A DNA stretch of 64,000 nt from Planctomycetota bacterium. Lineage in GTDB: Bacteria; Planctomycetota; Phycisphaerae; UBA1845; UTPLA1. How positions within the stretch are numbered: the first letter of the stretch is position 1; the number at the start of each line of letters is the position of its first letter. A program made the translations under genes and the position numbers. A model generated the notes under the pieces. It worked only from the letters and a program-made list of their open reading frames with translations, did no database searches and was not told where the DNA came from. The DNA is taken from positions 1-64,000 of the forward strand of contig JAATGM010000060.1 in assembly GCA_015654675.1 (NCBI GenBank). The letters are read 5' to 3'. Positions 40,251-49,329 of this stretch are shown one piece after another.

Positions 40251-40604
40251 CTACGGTCCGATCGCCATGGCCCCGACTTCGCCGGTTCGGATTCGGATGC
40301 AGTCTTCCAGCGGGAGGACGAAGATTTTTCCGTCGCCTAGCTTGCCGGTTTCGCCTGAGCGGGCGCCGCGGACTACTGCTTCTACCGCCTCTTCCACGAA
40401 TGCGTCGTTGATTGCGATTTCCAGTTTCAGCTTGGGGACCAGCCGCTCTTCGTATTGCTCGGCGCGGTAGACTTCGACTGAGCCGTGCTGGCGGCCGCAG
40501 CCGAGGACTTCGCTCACTGTCATCAGATAGACGTCGCATTCGGCGAGGGCCTGCTGCACTGAGTCGAGCTTTTCCGGGCGGATGATGGCGACGATGAGTT
40601 TCAT
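40251..40604 (-). CDS. P-II nitrogen regulatory protein
   Basis: A 117-residue P-II protein. It starts MKLIVAIIRPEKLDSVQQAL, has a T-loop with the uridylylation Tyr51 (VEVYRAEQYEERLVPKLKLE), the B-loop GARSGETGKLGDGKIFVLP and the C-terminal CIRIRTGEVGAMAI. It senses ATP/ADP and 2-oxoglutarate and controls the Amt channel. The amt gene lies immediately upstream on the same strand (15-base gap), the classic amtB-glnK pair but in the order amt then P-II. AGGAG lies six bases before the ATG. GlnK is more likely than GlnB from context. Confidence 0.95.
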   Translation of the reverse strand: MKLIVAIIRPEKLDSVQQALAECDVYLMTVSEVLGCGRQHGSVEVYRAEQYEERLVPKLKLEIAINDAFVEEAVEAVVRGARSGETGKLGDGKIFVLPLEDCIRIRTGEVGAMAIGP

Positions 40605-40619: not shown

Positions 40620-42278
40620 TCAGGCGTCCAGGCGGGCGGCCGCGGCCGGCGAGACCGTCTTGAACAGCGTTTCGAGGTTCCGCCGCATCTGTTCGCGTTC
40701 GCCGCCGCGGAAGCGGAACTTGTTGCCGCGAATGGTGGTGACGTTGGAATAGATCGACTTAAACGCGTCGCTGGGCGGGCCGGCCTGGGTGCCGCACAGC
40801 TCGCGCCAGCGCGACATCATGGCGGCCGGCTCGACGCCTTCGAGCGAGACGGTGAAGCGGTTGGCGCGGACGGGCGGCGTCATCGCGGCGCGTGGCTCGG
40901 ATGAGGTGGTCACGACGACGGGCTCGCTGCCGCCGATGGCGTAGGCGCGTTCGCTGTGCTGCGAGAGGTCCATGCCGAGGATTTCTTCGTCGTGCTCGGC
41001 GCGGACTTTGAAGAAGGCATTGATGACGATGAGCAGGATCAGCGTTCCGACGCCGCAGAATGCGAAGGTGACTAGGACGGCGACGCCTTGTTTCCACAAC
41101 AGGGCGGGGTGGCCGGTTACGAGGCCGCCGGGCAGGCCGAGGGTGAGTGTGCGAATGGTCGGGTTTACGAGTTCGGTGGCGAAGACGCCGGTGAGGAGAG
41201 CGCCGAGGGTTCCGCCGACCATGTGGACGCCTACTACGTCGAGGGCGTCGTCATAGCCGAAGCGGGGCTTGAGGGAAACGGCGGCGTAGCAGACGGCTCC
41301 GCCCGCCGCGCCGATGGCGAGGGCGGCCATTGGGGTGACGAAGCCCGCGCAGGGGGTGATTGCGACGAGGCCGGCGACTGCGCCGGAGGCCGCGCCGAGG
41401 AGCGTGGGGCGGCCGTGCTTGAAGCGCTCGACGATGAGCCAGGCGAGGGCGGCGGCGGCGGCGGCGGTGTTGGTGTTGACGAAGGCGACAGAGGCGAGTT
41501 CGTTAGAGCCGAGGGCGCTGCCGGCGTTGAAGCCGAACCAGCCGACCCAGAGTAATGATGCGCCGATGACTGTGAAGGGGAGATTGTGGGGGACCATGGG
41601 CTCGTGGCCGTGGCCGATGCGCTTGCCCAGATAGAGGGCGGCGACGAGGGCTGAAACTCCGCTGGCGATGTGGACGACGGTTCCGCCGGCGAAGTCGAGG
41701 GCTCCGATCTGGGTTTGGATCCATCCGCCGCCCCAGACCCAGTGGACCATGGGGCAATAGATCAGTACTGACCAGAGTAGCATGAAGATGGCGAAGGCCG
41801 GGAAGCGCATGCGCTCGGCGAATGCGCCGGAGATCAGGGCGGGTGTGATGATGGCGAACGTGGCCTGATAGGCGACGAAGAGCATGTGCGGGATGGTGGG
41901 TGCGAGCGGGCTGGCCGTGCCGAGGACGTGCCGCAGACCGAAGAACTCGACGCCGCCCCAGATTCCATTCTGGCTGGGCGCGAACGCCATCGAGTAGCCA
42001 AAGAGAATCCACACCACGCTCAGCAGGCCGGCGCAGAAGAAGCTGTGCATCAGCGTTGAGAGCACGTTTTTCGAGCGGACGAGTCCGCCGTAGAAGAGGG
42101 CCAGTCCGGGGATGGTCATCATGAGTACGAGGGCCGTGCTCGTGAGCATCCAGGCGGTGTCGCCGCTATCGAACTTCACGGAGGGTGCGCTGGTGGTTTC
42201 GGCGGCGGAGGCGGAGGAGTGAGCGATGCCGAGCGCGAGAATGGCGGCCATGGTCGGCCAGCGTGTGAGTCGTTTCAT
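40620..42278 (-). CDS. amt: Amt-family ammonium transporter with C-terminal extension
   Basis: A 552-residue protein: signal peptide (to about residue 26), 11 transmembrane helices typical of Amt (DTAWMLTSTALVLMMTIPGLA, ALFYGGLVRSKNVL, GWIQTQIGALDFAGGTVVHI, FGYDDALDVVGVHMVGGTLG) and the cytosolic tail DEEILGMDLSQHSERAYAI that contacts P-II. Beyond this, residues about 460-552 are an extra soluble segment (RANRFTVSLEGVEPAAMM, FRFRGGEREQMRRNLETLF) absent from E. coli AmtB and not recognised by me. ATG at 42278 has GAGGA nine bases upstream. The transporter carries ammonium/ammonia across the inner membrane when nitrogen is scarce. Confidence 0.94.
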   Translation of the reverse strand: MKRLTRWPTMAAILALGIAHSSASAAETTSAPSVKFDSGDTAWMLTSTALVLMMTIPGLALFYGGLVRSKNVLSTLMHSFFCAGLLSVVWILFGYSMAFAPSQNGIWGGVEFFGLRHVLGTASPLAPTIPHMLFVAYQATFAIITPALISGAFAERMRFPAFAIFMLLWSVLIYCPMVHWVWGGGWIQTQIGALDFAGGTVVHIASGVSALVAALYLGKRIGHGHEPMVPHNLPFTVIGASLLWVGWFGFNAGSALGSNELASVAFVNTNTAAAAAALAWLIVERFKHGRPTLLGAASGAVAGLVAITPCAGFVTPMAALAIGAAGGAVCYAAVSLKPRFGYDDALDVVGVHMVGGTLGALLTGVFATELVNPTIRTLTLGLPGGLVTGHPALLWKQGVAVLVTFAFCGVGTLILLIVINAFFKVRAEHDEEILGMDLSQHSERAYAIGGSEPVVVTTSSEPRAAMTPPVRANRFTVSLEGVEPAAMMSRWRELCGTQAGPPSDAFKSIYSNVTTIRGNKFRFRGGEREQMRRNLETLFKTVSPAAAARLDA

Positions 42279-42325
42279 GGGGCGCGTCCTCGCGGGGCAG
42301 AGTCCTGAAATCAGTCCTTCTCGGG

Positions 42326-42429
42326 TGATATCGGCTTGATAAAACGATTCATCGTCGCTCAATCGCGTGCGAATGATGGCGCAAATGTTTTCGGTCGCTG
42401 TTCGCGTTCGCCAATTCAGTTGATATCGG
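42326..42429. repeat. Direct 9-bp repeats upstream of amt
   Basis: TGATATCGG occurs at 42326-42334 and 42421-42429, 95 bases apart in the same orientation, upstream of amt and of the divergent metal-efflux operon. Each contains the palindrome GATATC. They may be regulator sites, but two 9-mers in 250 bases may be chance. Confidence 0.25.
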
Positions 42430-42875: not shown

Positions 42876-43238
42876 ATGCAGTTCGGTCGAACGCTTTCGG
42901 TGTTGCTGGTTTACGCCATTCTGGCGTGTCCGGCACTCTGTTCGACTGACTCCACCTGCAGTTCCTGTCTTGACGCGTGCGGTGATAGTTCGCCTGAATC
43001 GCACCATCCTGAACGCGACTGCAGCGATCATCCGTGTTTCTGTCATGCGCTTCAGTCGGCCGATCAGGGGGCGACACGGATAGCGGGCGCGACACAGGCG
43101 CTGACGCTGCCGGCGACGATGGATTGCACAATCGGGGCGATCAGCGCCGGGCTGGAAGTCGTCGGATTGACGCCGGCATTGCCTGATTTCCACGCGGCTG
43201 AGCGGCTGCAGTTCATTTCACTCCCACTTCTCATCTGA
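42876..43238 (+). CDS. Small Cys-rich secreted protein, metal-operon associated
   Basis: A 120-residue protein with a signal peptide (TLSVLLVYAILACPALCS). The first 45 mature residues are rich in Cys, His, Asp and Glu (STDSTCSSCLDACGD, HHPERDCSDHPCFCHAL), suggesting metal binding in the periplasm. Directly upstream of the CzcC-like gene (89-base gap). Short Cys/His-rich leaders of this kind often precede CzcCBA operons; the family is not named. Confidence 0.7.
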   Translation: MQFGRTLSVLLVYAILACPALCSTDSTCSSCLDACGDSSPESHHPERDCSDHPCFCHALQSADQGATRIAGATQALTLPATMDCTIGAISAGLEVVGLTPALPDFHAAERLQFISLPLLI

Positions 43239-43327
43239 TCCAAAGCCAGCGAACATCCGTCGGCGGTCGTCCGCGCGCTATGCGGCCGATTTTGTGATGG
43301 TTCGTCCTGGTTTTGGAGTCGGAGTCC

Positions 43328-44734
43328 ATGTTGACGCGAATTGTCGTGTGCGGCGCTCTGCTGGTTTTGGCGGGCTGTGCGTCGGTGAATCCGCGCGAGG
43401 ATTATGAGCGGACGGCGAATCTGATCACCGGGGCGGCGGGGCGGAAGGTGGTCGCGCCGCTGGAGATCGTTCCGGATGCTGCGCCGAACGTGGAGGAGAT
43501 TCTGCTGGACGGGCTGACGATGGATGAGTCGCTGCGGCTGGCGCTCATGAATAATCCGGGATTGCAGGCGGCGTTTCGCGACATCGGCGTGGCGCGGGCG
43601 GACCTGGTGCAGTCGGGGTTGTTCACGAATCCGTCGTTTTCGCTGGCGGTGGCGCTGCCGGCGCCGATGGACAACAACAATACGCAGGCGGCGATCGCGC
43701 AGAACATTGTTGAGCTGTGGGTGATTCCGGTGCGGAAGCGTGCCGCGCAGCACGCGCTGGACGCGGCGATCCTGACGGTGGCGCATCGAGCAGTGCAACT
43801 GGCGGCGGATACGCGGGCGGCGTACTACCTGGGAGTGGGGGCGGGGCACATCCGGCGGATCGCGGACGAAAACATTGCGGTGGCGAAGCGGCTGCTGGAG
43901 GCGGCCGAGGCGCGGCGGGCGGCGGGGACGTCGGGTGAGCTGGACCTGAATCTGGCACGGGGGTCGTTCGTGAATGCGGAGGTGGAGGCGGAGAAGGCGC
44001 GGCTGGATGAGATCGCGGCGCTTTACCAGCTCTCGCAACTGCTGGGGTTGAGCGTGCGGTCGGAGAAGCTGCAACTGTCTGATCCGCTGCCGCAGCCGCC
44101 TTCGGCGGCGCTGGTGGACACGCCGGTGGTGCAGTTAGCGAGGGTGTCGCGGCTGGACGTGCGGGCGGCGGACGAGGCAGTGGAGGCGGCGCGGGCGCGG
44201 GTTGAGCTGCAGAAGCGAAGCGTGTGGTCGAACGTCAGTCCGGGGGCGGCGTGGTGGGCGCCGGACGACGAGGGGCCGTCGATCGCGCTGACGCTGCCGA
44301 TTTTCGATCAGAACCAGGCGCAGATCGCGAAGGCGAAGTTCAACCTTGAGAAGGCGGAGAAGGAACGCGACGCGCTGGTGTTGACGGTGACGCAGGCGAT
44401 CCGGGAGACGCTGGTGCGGGCGGAGACGAACTGGCGGATCGCGCGAACGTTTGAGAACGAGCTGGTCCCGCAGACGGTGAAGAGCCTGGAGATGTCGCAG
44501 GAGTCGTACCGGGCGGGGCGGACGACGCTGCTGGTGGTGCTGGAGTCGCAGCGGGCGCTGCTGGATGCGCAACGGTCGAGCATTGCGGCGCGACAGGCGG
44601 CGGCGATCAGCGTGGCGGAGCTGGAGCGGGCGGTCTCGCGACGGCTGCCGGACATTCTGGATGCGACGGGGGAGCCGAACCGAATTGATTCGCCCACGTT
44701 CGTCAATCCCTCAATTTCGGGAGAACGACCATGA
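43328..44734 (+). CDS. czcC: CzcC/CusC-type outer-membrane efflux channel (TolC family)
   Basis: A 468-residue lipoprotein (lipobox LVLAGC, Cys16). Outer-membrane factor features: LTMDESLRLALMNNPGLQAA, a long helix pair rich in Ala/Glu, GAAWWAPDDEGPSIALTLPI near the barrel, and the second repeat ending TTLLVVLESQRALLDAQRS. It would form the exit duct for metal ions of the efflux system encoded downstream. Overlaps the adaptor gene by four bases (44731-44734). The symbol follows the operon order C-B-A. Confidence 0.9.
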   Translation: MLTRIVVCGALLVLAGCASVNPREDYERTANLITGAAGRKVVAPLEIVPDAAPNVEEILLDGLTMDESLRLALMNNPGLQAAFRDIGVARADLVQSGLFTNPSFSLAVALPAPMDNNNTQAAIAQNIVELWVIPVRKRAAQHALDAAILTVAHRAVQLAADTRAAYYLGVGAGHIRRIADENIAVAKRLLEAAEARRAAGTSGELDLNLARGSFVNAEVEAEKARLDEIAALYQLSQLLGLSVRSEKLQLSDPLPQPPSAALVDTPVVQLARVSRLDVRAADEAVEAARARVELQKRSVWSNVSPGAAWWAPDDEGPSIALTLPIFDQNQAQIAKAKFNLEKAEKERDALVLTVTQAIRETLVRAETNWRIARTFENELVPQTVKSLEMSQESYRAGRTTLLVVLESQRALLDAQRSSIAARQAAAISVAELERAVSRRLPDILDATGEPNRIDSPTFVNPSISGERP

Positions 44735-46215
44735 AACGATGGTTTGGGACGCTGGTTTTCGTGTCGGCGGTTGTGCTGCCGCTGGCGGCTTCTTGCGACA
44801 AGCCGCCACAGAGCGCGGCGGCGGCGACTTGTTCGGCGCACGGGCTTGGGGAGGCGGAGTGTCCATTCTGCCATCCGAATCGCGTGGCGGAGCTGGGCCA
44901 GTGTCGCGAGCATGGCGTGCCGGAGGCGCTGTGCTGGAAGTGCCGGCCGCAGCTTGTGGCGGCGTTTCAGAAAAAGGGGGATTGGTGCGCTGAGCATGCG
45001 CGGCCGGAGTCGCTGTGCGAGATCTGCAATCCGAAGGCGACTGCCGCCACGATGCCGGCTGGAGGGGAGGCGACGACGGCGGAAATGCCGCGGAGCCAAC
45101 GGGTTCCATCGGTGACGTGCACGACGGCGCAGAGCGTGGTGCGGCTGGCCTCGACCGACGTGGCGCGGAGCGCGGGGTTTGAGTTTGCGCGGGTGGAGCG
45201 GCGGCCGATCTCGCAATCGCTGACGTGCAACGCCGAGATTCAGTACGACGGGAACCGGTTCGCGCGGGTTGCGCCGCGTGTGTCGGGCGTGGTGCACGAG
45301 GTTTTGAAAGACGTGGGGGCGCCGGTTGCGGCGGGAGAGACGCTGGCGATCGTGGATTCGCCTGAGCTGGCGACGGCGCGGGCCGAGTATTTTCAGGCGA
45401 TGGAGCTCCTGGGGTTGTGCGAGCAGAACCACAAGGCGACGCACGAGTTGGTGGAGAAGGGCATCGCGGGGCGGCAGGAAGACCTGATCTCGGAGAGCAA
45501 GCTGGCGGAGGCGCGGATCACGTTGTCGCGGACGGCCCAGCATCTGCGAACGCTAGGGTTGAGCCAGGCGAACATCGACGAGCTGGCCAAGACGCGCGAC
45601 ACCAGCCCGCTGCTGGCTGTGGCGGCGCCGTTCGCGGGCGAGGTGGTCGAGCGGTCGGCGGTGGTAGGCGAGACGGCTAACGCGGCCCGGCCGTTGTTCG
45701 CGGTGGCCGATCCGCGGCGGATGTGGGCGAACCTCGACCTGTATGACGCGGACATCGCGGATGTGGCGGTGGGGCAGCCGGTGACGATCGCGGTGGACGG
45801 GCTGCGCGGCGAGACATTCGGGGGAAAGATCACATGGATCAGCCGGCAGATCGACCCCAAGACGCGGACGCTGCATGTGCGGGCGGAGCTGGACAACGCG
45901 GCGGGGCTGCTGAGGGCGAACATGTTTGGGCGGGCGACGATCGCAATTCATGAGCGGTCGCCGCTGCTGGTGGTGCCGGCGTCGGCGGTGCAGTGGGACG
46001 GGTGCTGCAACATCGCGTTTGTGCGGCGCGACGAGCTGACGTTCGAGCCGCGGAAGCTGCGGCTGGGGCGGGAGTCGGACGGCTATTACGAGGTGAAGGA
46101 CGGGCTGCACGAGGGGGACGTCGTGGTGACGCAGGGGAGCTTCATGCTCAAGACCGAGGTGATGAAGGGCAGCATCGGGGCGGGGTGCTGCGAGACGGGC
46201 GTACGCAAGAGCTGA
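44731..46215 (+). CDS. czcB: CzcB/CusB-type periplasmic adaptor with triple Cys/His motif
   Basis: A 494-residue membrane-fusion protein, lipoprotein-like at the N-terminus (VVLPLAASC, Cys22). Residues 34-99 hold three copies of the exact pattern C-x2-H-x6-C-x2-C (C34/H37/C44/C47, C58/H61/C68/C71, C86/H89/C96/C99), likely metal sites. The remainder is a standard adaptor: lipoyl (VAPRVSGVVHEVLKDVGAPV, IVDSPEL), helical hairpin (LLGLCEQNHKATHELVEKGI), and barrel (FAVADPRRMWANLDLYDADI). It couples CzcA to CzcC and may collect periplasmic metal. Confidence 0.92.
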   Translation: MKRWFGTLVFVSAVVLPLAASCDKPPQSAAAATCSAHGLGEAECPFCHPNRVAELGQCREHGVPEALCWKCRPQLVAAFQKKGDWCAEHARPESLCEICNPKATAATMPAGGEATTAEMPRSQRVPSVTCTTAQSVVRLASTDVARSAGFEFARVERRPISQSLTCNAEIQYDGNRFARVAPRVSGVVHEVLKDVGAPVAAGETLAIVDSPELATARAEYFQAMELLGLCEQNHKATHELVEKGIAGRQEDLISESKLAEARITLSRTAQHLRTLGLSQANIDELAKTRDTSPLLAVAAPFAGEVVERSAVVGETANAARPLFAVADPRRMWANLDLYDADIADVAVGQPVTIAVDGLRGETFGGKITWISRQIDPKTRTLHVRAELDNAAGLLRANMFGRATIAIHERSPLLVVPASAVQWDGCCNIAFVRRDELTFEPRKLRLGRESDGYYEVKDGLHEGDVVVTQGSFMLKTEVMKGSIGAGCCETGVRKS

Positions 46216-46233: not shown

Positions 46234-49200
46234 ATGCTTGAAGCAGTCATATTGTGGTCGTTGCGACACCGGTTCCTGGTGATCGTGTTTGCGGTGTTGC
46301 TGGTTGCGACGGGCGTTTACGCGGCGATGCGACTGCCGATTGACGCGTTTCCGGATACGACGCCGGTGCAGGTGCAGATCAATACCTATGCGCCGGCGCT
46401 GTCGCCGACGGAGATTGAGCAGCAGATCACGTATCCGATCGAGCAGTCGATCGGGGGGCTTCCGAACCTGGGGGAGGTGCGGTCGATCTCGAAGTTTGGG
46501 TTGTCACAGGTGACGGCGATCTTCGCGGACGGGACGGACGTGTACCGGGCGCGGCAGTTCATCGCGGAGCGGATCGGGTCGGTGGAGTTGCCGGAGGGGA
46601 TTGAACGGCCGCGGTTGGGGCCGGTGACGACCGGGCTGGGGGAGATTTTTCACTATGTGTTGACGAGTCGGACGCGGCCGCTGGAGGAGTTGACGACGCT
46701 GCATGACTGGGTGGTGAAGCCGCGACTGCGGTCGGTGCGCGGGGTGGCGGAGGTGAATACGTGGGGCGGGCTGCGGAAGCAGTTTCACGTGTTGATCGAT
46801 CCGATCCGGCTGATCAAACACGACCTGACGATGGACGACCTGGTTTCGGCGCTGCGGCAGAACAATCTCAACGTTGGCGGTGGGGGGATCACGCGGGGAA
46901 GCGAGTTTACGCTGGTGCAGGGGGTGGGGATCACGACGAACCTGCAGCAGATCGGGGACATCGTTGTGGCGGCGCATGATGGGGTGCCGATCCGGGTGCG
47001 CGATGTGGCGAACGTGGAAGTGGGACACGAGATTCGGCGCGGGGCGACGACGGCGAACGGTGGCGGCGAGGTGGTGCTGGGGCTGGCGTTCATGTTGATG
47101 GGGGAGAACAGCCACGACGTGTCGGCGCGGCTGGAGCGCGAGCTGGAGGAGATTCGCAAGTCGCTGCCGGCGGGGGTGGAGATCCGGCCGGTCTATGCGC
47201 GGACGGAGCTGGTGCAGCATGTGCTGGCGGCGGTGAAGTCGAACCTGCTTGAGGGGGCGCTGCTTGTGGTTGCGGTGCTGTTTGTCTTTCTGGGGAACCT
47301 GCGGTCGGGGTTGATCGTCGCGGCGGCGATCCCGCTGTCGATGTTGTTCGCGACGAATTTGATGCTGCGGTCGGGGATTGCGGGGAGCTTGATGAGTCTG
47401 GGGGCGATCGACTTCGGGTTGATCGTCGATAGCTCGGTCATCATGGTTGAGAACAGCTTGCGGCGGTTGAGTGAGAACACGGCGGGGCGGCCGCGGATGG
47501 AGGTGGTACGCGACGCGTCGATCGAGGTGCGGCGGCCGACGATGTTCGGCGAGCTGATCATCATGATCGTGTATCTGCCGATCCTGGCGCTGGAGGGCGT
47601 CGAGGGGAAGCTGTTTCGGCCGATGGCGTGGACGGTGATCTTTGCATTGCTGGGGTCGCTGGTGCTGTCGCTCACGCTGATGCCGGTGCTGGCGAGCTTG
47701 TTTCTGCCGCGACAGGTGCGGCATGGGGACAACTGGCTGGTGCGGGGGTTGAAGGCGGTCTATGCGCCACTGCTGAGTATGGCGATTCGCGGGCGCGGGC
47801 TGGTGATGGTGGGCTGCGCTGCGGCGCTGGGGCTGGGGGCGTGGCTGGCGTTTCACACGGGGTTTGAGTTCATCCCGCGGCTGTCGGAGGAAGCGATCAC
47901 GATTAATACGGTGCGGCTGGCGGGGGTATCGCTGGACGAGTCGATCCGGGCGGGGACGAATCTGGAGCGGACGATTCGCGAAAAATTTCCGGATGAGGTT
48001 CGCGATGTGTGGACACGGACGGGGACGGCTGAGATCGCGACGGACCCGATGGGGCTGGAGGTGTCGGATGTTTTCATCACGTTGAAACCGCGGGCGAATT
48101 GGAAGGCGGCGCGGTCGCAGGATGAGCTGGAGCGGAAATTGAGCGAGGCGCTGGCCGGGGTTCCCGGGATGCGGATTGTGTTCAGCCAGCCGATCGAGAT
48201 GCGGATGAACGAGATGGTGGCGGGGATTCGGGCGGATGTCGGTGTAAAGATCTTTGGGGACGATCTGGAACTGTTGAAGGCGCTGGCGGCACAAGTGCGG
48301 GAGATTCTCGAGTCGATTCCGGGCAGTTCGGACGTGTACGCGGAACAGATCACTGGGCAGCCGGTGTTGGAGGTGCGGGTCGATCAGGCGGCGATTTCGC
48401 GGTATGGGGTGTCGGCGGCGCATGTGCTGGAATTGGTGGAGGCGATCGGGGGGCGAAAGGTGGGGGACATTCGCGAGAACCAGCGGCGGTTTGACCTCGT
48501 GCTGCGGATCGCGGAGCCGTATCGGCAGGATGTGGAGTCGATCGGGCGGATACTGATTCCGACGGCGCGGGGTGAACGGATTCCGCTGTCGAAGCTGGCG
48601 CACATCAGCCAGATTGAGGGGCCGTCGACGGTGTCACGCGAGTGGCAGCGGCGGCGGATCGTGGTGCAGTGCAACGTGGTGGGGCGCGACGTGGGGAGCT
48701 TTGTTGCTGAGGCGGAGCGGCGGATTAACGCCGAAGTGGTCTTGCCATCGGGGGCCTATGTCGCGTTTGGCGGGCAGTTTGAGCACTTTCAGCGGGCGAG
48801 CCGGCGACTGATGTTCGTGGTGCCGCTAGCGCTGGGGCTGGTGCTGGTGTTGTTGTATCTGACTTATGGTCGGGCGGCGGACGTGGCGCGGATTTTCATG
48901 ACGCTTCCGCTCGCGGCGGTGGGGGGGCTGGCGGGGCTGCATTTGCGCGGCATGCCATTCACGATTTCGGCGGGGGTGGGGTTTGTCGCGATGCTGGGTG
49001 TGTCGGTGCTGGGGGACATGGTGTTTGTGTCGTATTTGCGCGGCTTGCTGGCGCACGGGGTCGATCTGATTGAGGCAATTCAAGAAACGGCCCTGACGCG
49101 GCTGCGGCCGGTGCTGATGACTGGTCTGGTGGCGAGTCTGGGGTTCGTTCCGATGGCGCTCAACACGGGCGTCGGGGCGGAGGTTCAGCGTCCGTTGGCG

Positions 49201-49329
49201 ACGGTGGTGATCGGAGGCGTCGTGACGAGTACGCTGCTCACGCTCATCGTGCTTCCGGCGGTCTATGCACTCGTGTCCGGCGGCGTCAGTCGTCGGCCAT
49301 CGTCCCCGTCTTCGTCGCCGATTTCCTGA
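46234..49329 (+). CDS. czcA: CzcA/CusA-type heavy-metal RND efflux pump
   Basis: A 1031-residue RND transporter with 12 transmembrane helices and two large periplasmic loops. Start LEAVILWSLRHRFLVIVFAV and AMRLPIDAFPDTTPVQVQ are HME-RND-like; helix 4 has the proton-relay motif DFGLIVDSSVIMVEN (Ser where many CzcA have Gly), and GSSDVYAEQITGQPVLEVRV and SGAYVAFGGQFEHFQRA are conserved. It exports divalent or monovalent metals with CzcB and CzcC. The choice between Zn/Co/Cd and Cu/Ag cannot be made by eye. Its last 44 bases overlap the convergent patatin gene. Confidence 0.94.
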   Translation: MLEAVILWSLRHRFLVIVFAVLLVATGVYAAMRLPIDAFPDTTPVQVQINTYAPALSPTEIEQQITYPIEQSIGGLPNLGEVRSISKFGLSQVTAIFADGTDVYRARQFIAERIGSVELPEGIERPRLGPVTTGLGEIFHYVLTSRTRPLEELTTLHDWVVKPRLRSVRGVAEVNTWGGLRKQFHVLIDPIRLIKHDLTMDDLVSALRQNNLNVGGGGITRGSEFTLVQGVGITTNLQQIGDIVVAAHDGVPIRVRDVANVEVGHEIRRGATTANGGGEVVLGLAFMLMGENSHDVSARLERELEEIRKSLPAGVEIRPVYARTELVQHVLAAVKSNLLEGALLVVAVLFVFLGNLRSGLIVAAAIPLSMLFATNLMLRSGIAGSLMSLGAIDFGLIVDSSVIMVENSLRRLSENTAGRPRMEVVRDASIEVRRPTMFGELIIMIVYLPILALEGVEGKLFRPMAWTVIFALLGSLVLSLTLMPVLASLFLPRQVRHGDNWLVRGLKAVYAPLLSMAIRGRGLVMVGCAAALGLGAWLAFHTGFEFIPRLSEEAITINTVRLAGVSLDESIRAGTNLERTIREKFPDEVRDVWTRTGTAEIATDPMGLEVSDVFITLKPRANWKAARSQDELERKLSEALAGVPGMRIVFSQPIEMRMNEMVAGIRADVGVKIFGDDLELLKALAAQVREILESIPGSSDVYAEQITGQPVLEVRVDQAAISRYGVSAAHVLELVEAIGGRKVGDIRENQRRFDLVLRIAEPYRQDVESIGRILIPTARGERIPLSKLAHISQIEGPSTVSREWQRRRIVVQCNVVGRDVGSFVAEAERRINAEVVLPSGAYVAFGGQFEHFQRASRRLMFVVPLALGLVLVLLYLTYGRAADVARIFMTLPLAAVGGLAGLHLRGMPFTISAGVGFVAMLGVSVLGDMVFVSYLRGLLAHGVDLIEAIQETALTRLRPVLMTGLVASLGFVPMALNTGVGAEVQRPLATVVIGGVVTSTLLTLIVLPAVYALVSGGVSRRPSSPSSSPIS

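Follow-up and report, generated by a model that had tools for sequence, protein, structure and literature searches.

A Cys/His repeat ahead of RND pump adaptors as a putative periplasmic metal-capture module in Planctomycetota and other bacteria

Introduction

The window analysed here is a stretch of 64,000 nucleotides of a Planctomycetota bacterium (assembly GCA_015654675.1, contig JAATGM010000060.1, positions 1 to 64,000 of the forward strand). It contains an operon for a resistance-nodulation-division (RND) metal pump whose periplasmic adaptor, a CzcB/ZneB-type protein of 494 amino acids (44731..46215, + strand; PF16576, 2.1e-51), carries three copies of the motif CxxH-x6-CxxC in front of its fold. 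The question raised by this locus is what such an array does for a pump, and for which metal. For Cu/Ag (CusF, CusB) the handover of metal from the periplasm to an RND pump is well documented; for Zn/Cd RND pumps we know of no dedicated periplasmic carrier. The accessory proteins CzcE and CzcI of Zn/Cd pumps are described as periplasmic, metal-binding and acting on expression or activity (PMC10127602; this and the other articles are cited from excerpts).

Results

A three-unit array in front of the adaptor fold

The original prediction had read three exact motifs of identical spacing from the N-terminus of the adaptor, and the translation of 44731..46215 agrees. They occupy residues 34-99, with unit 1 at residues 34-47 (C34/H37/C44/C47; 44830..44871, +), unit 2 at residues 58-71 (C58/H61/C68/C71; 44902..44943, +) and unit 3 at residues 86-99 (C86/H89/C96/C99; 44986..45027, +). 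All nine cysteines of residues 23-105 fall within the three motifs. When the whole protein was shuffled 200,000 times, at least one motif appeared in 74 shuffles and two in none; shuffling only residues 23-105, again 200,000 times, yielded one motif or more in 610 cases, two in 2 and three in none. The three-unit array is far beyond chance.

The array precedes the adaptor fold, as had been proposed, and apart from weak matches below cut-off Pfam and NCBIfam see the adaptor only from about residue 150 (HlyD_D23, TIGR01730). The core is of HlyD/CusB type, a barrel-sandwich with alpha-hairpin, with 153.7 bits against the TIGR01730 cut-off of 94.9, and is related to the curated CzcB/NccB subfamily while falling outside it (TIGR00999, 148.9 bits vs the cut-off of 319.3). 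A possible lipoprotein cysteine was read by eye at residue 22 (LAASC-D). The modelled core aligned best to ZneB (3lnn; Z 21.9, rmsd, root-mean-square deviation, 8.3, 29% identity, 329 residues, model residues 134-479). CusB could be aligned to it too (Z 21.2, rmsd 7.3), the part of the model involved being residues 134-482.

Modelled alone, the array was predicted as turns, short helices and bridges with a mean predicted local distance difference test score (pLDDT) of 87.4, and 62 of its 83 residues reached at least 90 (66 sequences). It is flanked by stretches of pLDDT below 50 at adaptor residues 15-28 and 108-116. Compared with the PDB, the array model gave no match of Z at least 2 in VIA-align and two weak zinc-finger chains in Foldseek (E 7.6), an outcome that does not establish a new fold.

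Conservation and spread of the repeat

The N-terminal 83 residues matched 50 of the 294 sampled genomes of the phylum by BLAST, the window's own included. The survey of other adaptors that had been asked for showed the repeat to be widely conserved, strict units being kept in the fetched regions of 48 of the other 49 genomes. There they belong to, or lie close to, an operon with an RND pump or adaptor, as called by profiles made from the proteins of the window. In the exception (G210, L194) the fetched contig showed neither a strict unit nor a pump. In one genome (G236) a separate repeat protein is encoded behind genes for a pump and an ATPase, and its adaptor is without the unit. Absence of the repeat in close homologues would have spoken against the original prediction. 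All three of the nearest whole-adaptor homologues found among the sampled genomes of the class (55%, 52% and 47% identical) have the repeat, though G295 and G323, two members of the same family, were matched only via repeat-less adaptors that are 34% and 33% identical.

Ten arrays were used for a wider scan of genome contigs, in which 365 out of 452 candidate stretches were confirmed and 79 loci were kept. These are mostly from Planctomycetota, the other record titles naming Armatimonadetes, Desulfobacteraceae and other Thermodesulfobacteriota, Krumholzibacteriia, Cloacimonadota, Holophagae and other Acidobacteria, Myxococcales and single Proteobacteria metagenome-assembled genomes; binning errors are possible in assignments that come from such genomes. 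The named strain Enhygromyxa salina SWB005 is among them, and both plasmid records matched carry the names Planctomycetes/Planctomyces.

The consensus of the unit is gdWCxEHgvPESqCxxCnPeL, and methionine makes up 0.16% of unit residues. When 65 arrays of the same spacing were aligned together with that of the window, 11 of the 12 ligand columns were invariant, as were a D-W pair and a P, the first Cys column being displaced by one in CxH forms; since this set was chosen by motif, the ligand conservation is partly built in. The spacing from H to C in CxxH units was 6 in 178 of 179 units of the phylum set, and 6 in 328 and 4 in 29 units of the 79-locus set, counted in frames selected for at least two x6 units. 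The form one residue shorter, CxH-x6-CxxC, had the x6 spacing in 18 of 19 CxH units of the phylum set and in 42 of 42 of the 79-locus set. Both the 29 x4 units and the CxH form were found in repeat-bearing frames (L109-L187). Four loci (L071, L074, L075 and L076) have the variant RLWCxEHxRYEDRCWxCxP in up to nine copies per adaptor, and their pumps form a separate branch.

The units of ten repeat proteins (eight separate, two adaptors) had no Pfam match at curated cut-offs, and those of the eight separate proteins none in NCBIfam. In the open-licence literature, judged from titles and abstract openings, no recognisable account of a CxxH-x6-CxxC repeat was found. Judged by these comparisons, the repeat is an undescribed family found across many bacteria.

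Fused and separate repeats

Phylum, class and genome-contig sets and the two plasmids were pooled and identical adaptors were counted once, giving 122 distinct adaptor loci. The units were in the adaptor alone in 74 of these, in the adaptor plus a separate repeat frame before it in 25, in the adaptor plus a separate frame behind the pump in 20, and solely in a separate frame in 3. Copies per adaptor ranged from one to nine, three being commonest. A pump was found beside the adaptor in 116 of the 122 loci; of the six adaptors to which no pump was assigned, five are at the end of a contig, and for the sixth (L068) the pump profile fell on a long overlapping frame. By simple patterns, 32 of the separate frames (56 distinct by array) have a lipobox-like motif and the remaining 24 a hydrophobic stretch; these frames, of at least two units, may include a few broken adaptors (e.g. 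L061, L125), and the counts of separate proteins are possibly lower. On the K2D plasmid (Planctomycetes bacterium) the order is czcC-hyp-czcB-czcA-repeat protein, followed by a hypothetical gene, an HMA protein, cadA, trxA and czcD.

Pump type and likely metal

Pumps were aligned to the window pump, and the positions of CusA M573, M623 and M672, which we take to be substrate residues with M672 aligned to ZneA D658, were located through structural-relative alignment. The window pump has N558, V610 and E660 at these positions and DFGLIVD in transmembrane segment 4 (TM4), and is thus of divalent type in having no Met triad, a carboxylate at the M672/D658 position and the TM4 Asp-Phe-Gly. Its best solved relative is the Zn pump ZneA (4k0e, 700.8 bits; CusA, 571.8 bits).

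Pumps beside repeat adaptors were mostly of this kind. Among 108 distinct ones the triplet was NLE in 64, NVE in 30, NQE in 8, another in 6 and MMM in none; the M573 position was N in 106, the M672 position E in 105, and TM4 read DFG in 105. For comparison, 20 regions were chosen by frame length from among the strongest matches to the domain HMBD (PF19335). In this small set MMM was found in 13 of 15 HMBD-linked pumps and TM4 DFG in 0 of 15. Eleven pumps by adaptors with neither domain were mixed, two of them having MMM. In the pump tree (FastTree, 113 rows) 75 of 78 repeat-bearing pumps, together with four split cases, fall in one strongly supported branch, and the 15 HMBD pumps with two others make up another. 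A second small pump lineage, which holds the other three (L077, L176, L179), is distant, with an N/Q/E triplet, TM4 A-x-G and adaptors carrying x6 repeats. The association between repeat and pump type is real, with few evolutionary events behind it.

CPx ATPases encoded nearby divide likewise. Near 147 loci of the repeat set the motif CPCALVI(S/A)TP, the ZntA/CadA signature, occurred 13 times, SPCALA(I/V)(S/A)TP twice and CPCALGLATP, that of CopA, never; near the 20 loci of the HMBD set CPCALGLATP occurred six times and the others never, the CopA count being biased for two loci (L202, L217) where the HMBD by which the region was selected sits in the ATPase frame itself. Some repeat-set ATPases are closer to a second, repeat-less adaptor, and one locus (L251) has no repeat adaptor. 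With NCBIfam models ten ATPases were scored, and the Zn/Cd/Hg/Pb model exceeded that of CopA in 7 of 7 from the repeat set, the reverse in 3 of 3 from the HMBD set, none reaching the cut-offs. Because of the pump triplets, the kinship to ZneA and the ATPase types, the ion exported by this operon is most likely a divalent one, for example Zn2+ or Cd2+.

Extra cysteines of the adaptor core

Five cysteines outside the array are shared by many repeat-bearing adaptors. C130 (45118..45120, +) is Cys in 95 of 108 repeat-bearing adaptors, the pair C425-C426 (WDGCCN; 46003..46008, +) in 73 and 76, and the C-terminal pair C486-C487 (GAGCC; 46186..46191, +) in 104 and 75; all five occur jointly in 64. 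Of 15 HMBD adaptors, five had C130 and three C486; C486 was seen in 0 of 11 adaptors that carry neither domain, and eight repeat-less adaptors near a repeat frame had C130 in six and C486 in four. The Cys-Cys pairs track with the array and are mostly missing from the HMBD and other adaptors compared. Both ends of the adaptor chain and the strand that follows the barrel are parts of the membrane-proximal domain, which adjoins the pump. Every domain of an adaptor with this fold is formed by the N- and C-terminal halves together (PMC4446572). The extra cysteines could thus form a second site.

Operon context and the leader protein

The operon is compact and on the + strand, with leader, channel, adaptor and pump in this order. 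The adaptor is flanked as in heavy metal efflux RND operons, by an outer-membrane channel of OEP/TolC type, CzcC-like (43313..44734, +; PF02321, 1.1e-40), with which its frame shares four bases, and by the CzcA/CusA-family RND pump (46234..49329, +; TIGR00914, 1163.7 bits). The likely start of the channel is ATG 43328, with a lipobox as read by eye. A DNA search found no plasmid similarity for 43200-44740.

The open reading frame at the head of the operon (42876..43238, +) encodes a 120-residue protein which had been noted before as Cys/His-rich and secreted. This was borne out, with nine Cys and five His; it is, however, without CxxH-x6-CxxC, and its gene is not next to that of the adaptor but two genes upstream, the channel gene being between. 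In the CutF-cutO system an exported leader senses copper during its own synthesis, with a stem-loop over the next Shine-Dalgarno sequence (PMC9973294), and CzcI of C. metallidurans, in the same operon position, is reported to quench the pump (PMC10127602). The window protein is like CzcI and CutF in being short (under 150 residues) and secreted, with a hydrophobic N-terminus and a CxxxC (by eye), in standing at the head of a metal operon, before the efflux genes, and in a predicted stem-loop over the next Shine-Dalgarno. It differs in having no DUF2946 match and in a C-terminus, SLPLLI, that is not the Pro-rich stalling-like motif of CutF type; CzcI is likewise reported without a Pro-rich C-terminal motif (PMC9973294). 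No Pfam or NCBIfam match was obtained at E up to 1. Because homologues by sequence were weak or absent (five weak matches in 119 other class genomes, none in the first 40 loci), the kinship rests on position and make-up. By analogy the protein is probably a regulator, a leader or sensor protein.

The stem-loop (43234..43323, +) was predicted by folding 43225-43335, which gave -44.3 kcal/mol and a z of -3.27; just 1 of 200 shuffles did as well. Its 5′ arm (43234-43249) spans the leader stop and its 3′ arm (43305-43323) spans GGAG at 43315-43318, nine bases before ATG 43328, which makes it a candidate for leader-controlled translation of the metal operon. At other repeat loci the operon often opens with a short secreted Cys-rich frame that barely aligns to the window leader, and 57 distinct leader candidates were picked by size, Cys content and hydrophobic stretch, some of them apparently unrelated proteins. 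The regions behind these 57 had a mean z of -1.57, with 22 below -2 as against 7 of 170 behind channel, adaptor or pump frames, a comparison in which intergenic DNA as such may differ in structure. Many repeat operons begin with a fast-evolving gene for a secreted Cys-rich protein of 100-160 amino acids, hardly alignable except for the recurring tails LRSVVLTC, SDRPLLV and HPPRx (L062, L065, L072, L125, L130, L137, L199, L200, L201 and others). The tail pattern was found in 27 of the 57 leaders and in 80 of 5394 control frames; it was written after inspection of the tails and is thus descriptive. Leaders with these tails are possibly arrest peptides.

Outside the operon, a P-II signal protein gene (PF00543) stands beside an ammonium-transporter-like gene, as judged by eye, upstream (40251-40604 and 40620-42362, -). 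A patatin-like phospholipase frame (PF01734; 49286-50572, -) runs convergently into the end of the pump gene.

Discussion

A capture module and its rivals

The original prediction had taken the three motifs for metal sites that could load the pump. As metal sites they are well supported indirectly, by the conservation, the x6 spacing, the confident model and the metal type of the pump. That the array loads the pump is what we infer by analogy with CusF, CusB and SilB. Each unit would be a small knuckle binding one divalent ion through Cys3His, and the array, tethered to the N-terminus of the adaptor in the periplasm, would catch a divalent ion of borderline-soft character, most likely Zn2+ or Cd2+. 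Free or tethered, it would raise the local metal concentration at the adaptor; the metal would move on through the adaptor, perhaps by the core cysteines C130, C425/C426 and C486/C487, and reach the periplasmic cleft of the pump. The separate repeat protein of relatives would then be a soluble or lipid-anchored donor, as CusF is for CusB. We regard it as rather probable that the array is a periplasmic metal-capture module for a divalent RND pump, from which Zn2+ or Cd2+ is passed via the adaptor to the pump.

Several points weigh against this. Periplasmic CxxC pairs could be disulfides, and adaptor residues 486-494, with the C-terminal cysteine pair, were modelled with pLDDT below 50. The operon of the window is without a separate repeat protein, and a search of the genome with the array profile found no second copy at E up to 1. 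Eight repeat-less adaptors have a repeat frame no more than 6 kb away, and their pumps had more varied triplets (NME in 3, HVE in 2, NVE, QIE and QAE); several of these adaptors are second adaptors and not true splits. The pump tree needs just four changes for the repeat and three for HMBD, so that the 108 pumps are not as many independent cases.

The main rival is a flux gate, in which the array senses metal so that the pump runs only under periplasmic excess and the bound metal is not the pumped one. Periplasmic metal sites of CzcB in C. metallidurans have been suggested to serve flux control (PMC10127602), and the poorly predicted stretches that bound the array would suit such a role; yet copy numbers of one to nine and the occurrence of the repeat also off the adaptor (only off it in 3 of 122 loci) are easier to square with a buffer or carrier than with a fixed switch, and we hold the gate to be unlikely. 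Less likely still are structural zinc knuckles, in which metal merely folds the units and these serve in protein-protein contacts, be it among the protomers of the adaptor or to a separate repeat protein. Here the conserved non-ligand residues D, W, P, E and S and the high predicted confidence suit a folded interaction module, and arrays of adaptor and separate protein could pair, but the tight tie to the metal type of the pump would be unexpected for a pure scaffold, and the copy number is loose. Least probable is a redox or disulfide module with CxxC pairs oxidised in the periplasm and an incidental His. The periplasmic location, the CxxC pairs themselves and the thioredoxin gene near the K2D operon speak for it, whereas the full CxxH pattern was kept in 48 of 49 genomes that were found by BLAST similarity and not by motif, and Cys3His leaves one odd Cys per unit.

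Metal capture remains the preferred reading, and a more speculative picture can be built on it, in which the repeat, fused to the adaptor or split from it, is the missing periplasmic carrier of divalent-metal RND pumps, the Zn/Cd counterpart of CusF and of HMBD, handing metal to a Cys relay in the membrane-proximal part of the adaptor and on to an Asn-Glu site of the pump, under a metal-sensing leader that opens the stem-loop. This whole chain we consider possible but rather doubtful. Whatever its function, the repeat, to which no Pfam or NCBIfam model matched, is common in the sampled phylum, reaches several others and occurs fused or split. It marks the pump type and would offer annotators a rule, x6 for divalent-type and x10 for Cu/Ag-type pumps, and as a small domain it is suited to direct tests of metal transfer to a divalent RND pump.

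Comparison with known systems

HMBD is the nearest likeness, being a small Cys/His unit of the form CxxH...CxxC, sometimes repeated, that precedes the adaptor fold in metal RND operons within this phylum. It is present somewhere in 204 of the 294 phylum genomes and stands in front of CusB-like adaptor cores but also in CopA ATPases. The spacing from H to C was 10 in 54 of 55 HMBD-like units and is 6 in the repeat; CPMH and CGM are features of HMBD, and its partner pumps are MMM and CusA-like, in contrast to N-x-E beside the repeat. The window adaptor accordingly fails the pattern CPMH-x10-CPxCGM, by its x6 spacing and lack of CGM. HMBD was unmatched at E up to 1 in this adaptor, as in the ten repeat proteins tried, and none of the repeat-set adaptors combined HMBD with the x6 repeat. 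A shared origin was considered, but profile comparison aligned the CxxC half alone (12 columns, probability 34%), which establishes homology neither way.

In ZneB, Zn is bound at the interface of barrel and membrane-proximal domain (PMC4446572). The sequence alignment to ZneB spans adaptor residues 153-473 and places C425-C426 opposite Phe-Tyr.

The carrier domain of the copper and silver systems occurs both free, as CusF, and fused to a metal RND adaptor, at the C-terminus of SilB (PMC4446572), and the repeat too occurs alone and adaptor-fused. CusF is a β-barrel binding Cu(I)/Ag(I) through Met ligands (PMC4446572), whereas the repeat is N-terminal, of Cys3His type and modelled as turns and short helices. 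Relatedness to CusF is not claimed; by analogy, the best reading is that the repeat module works like CusF.

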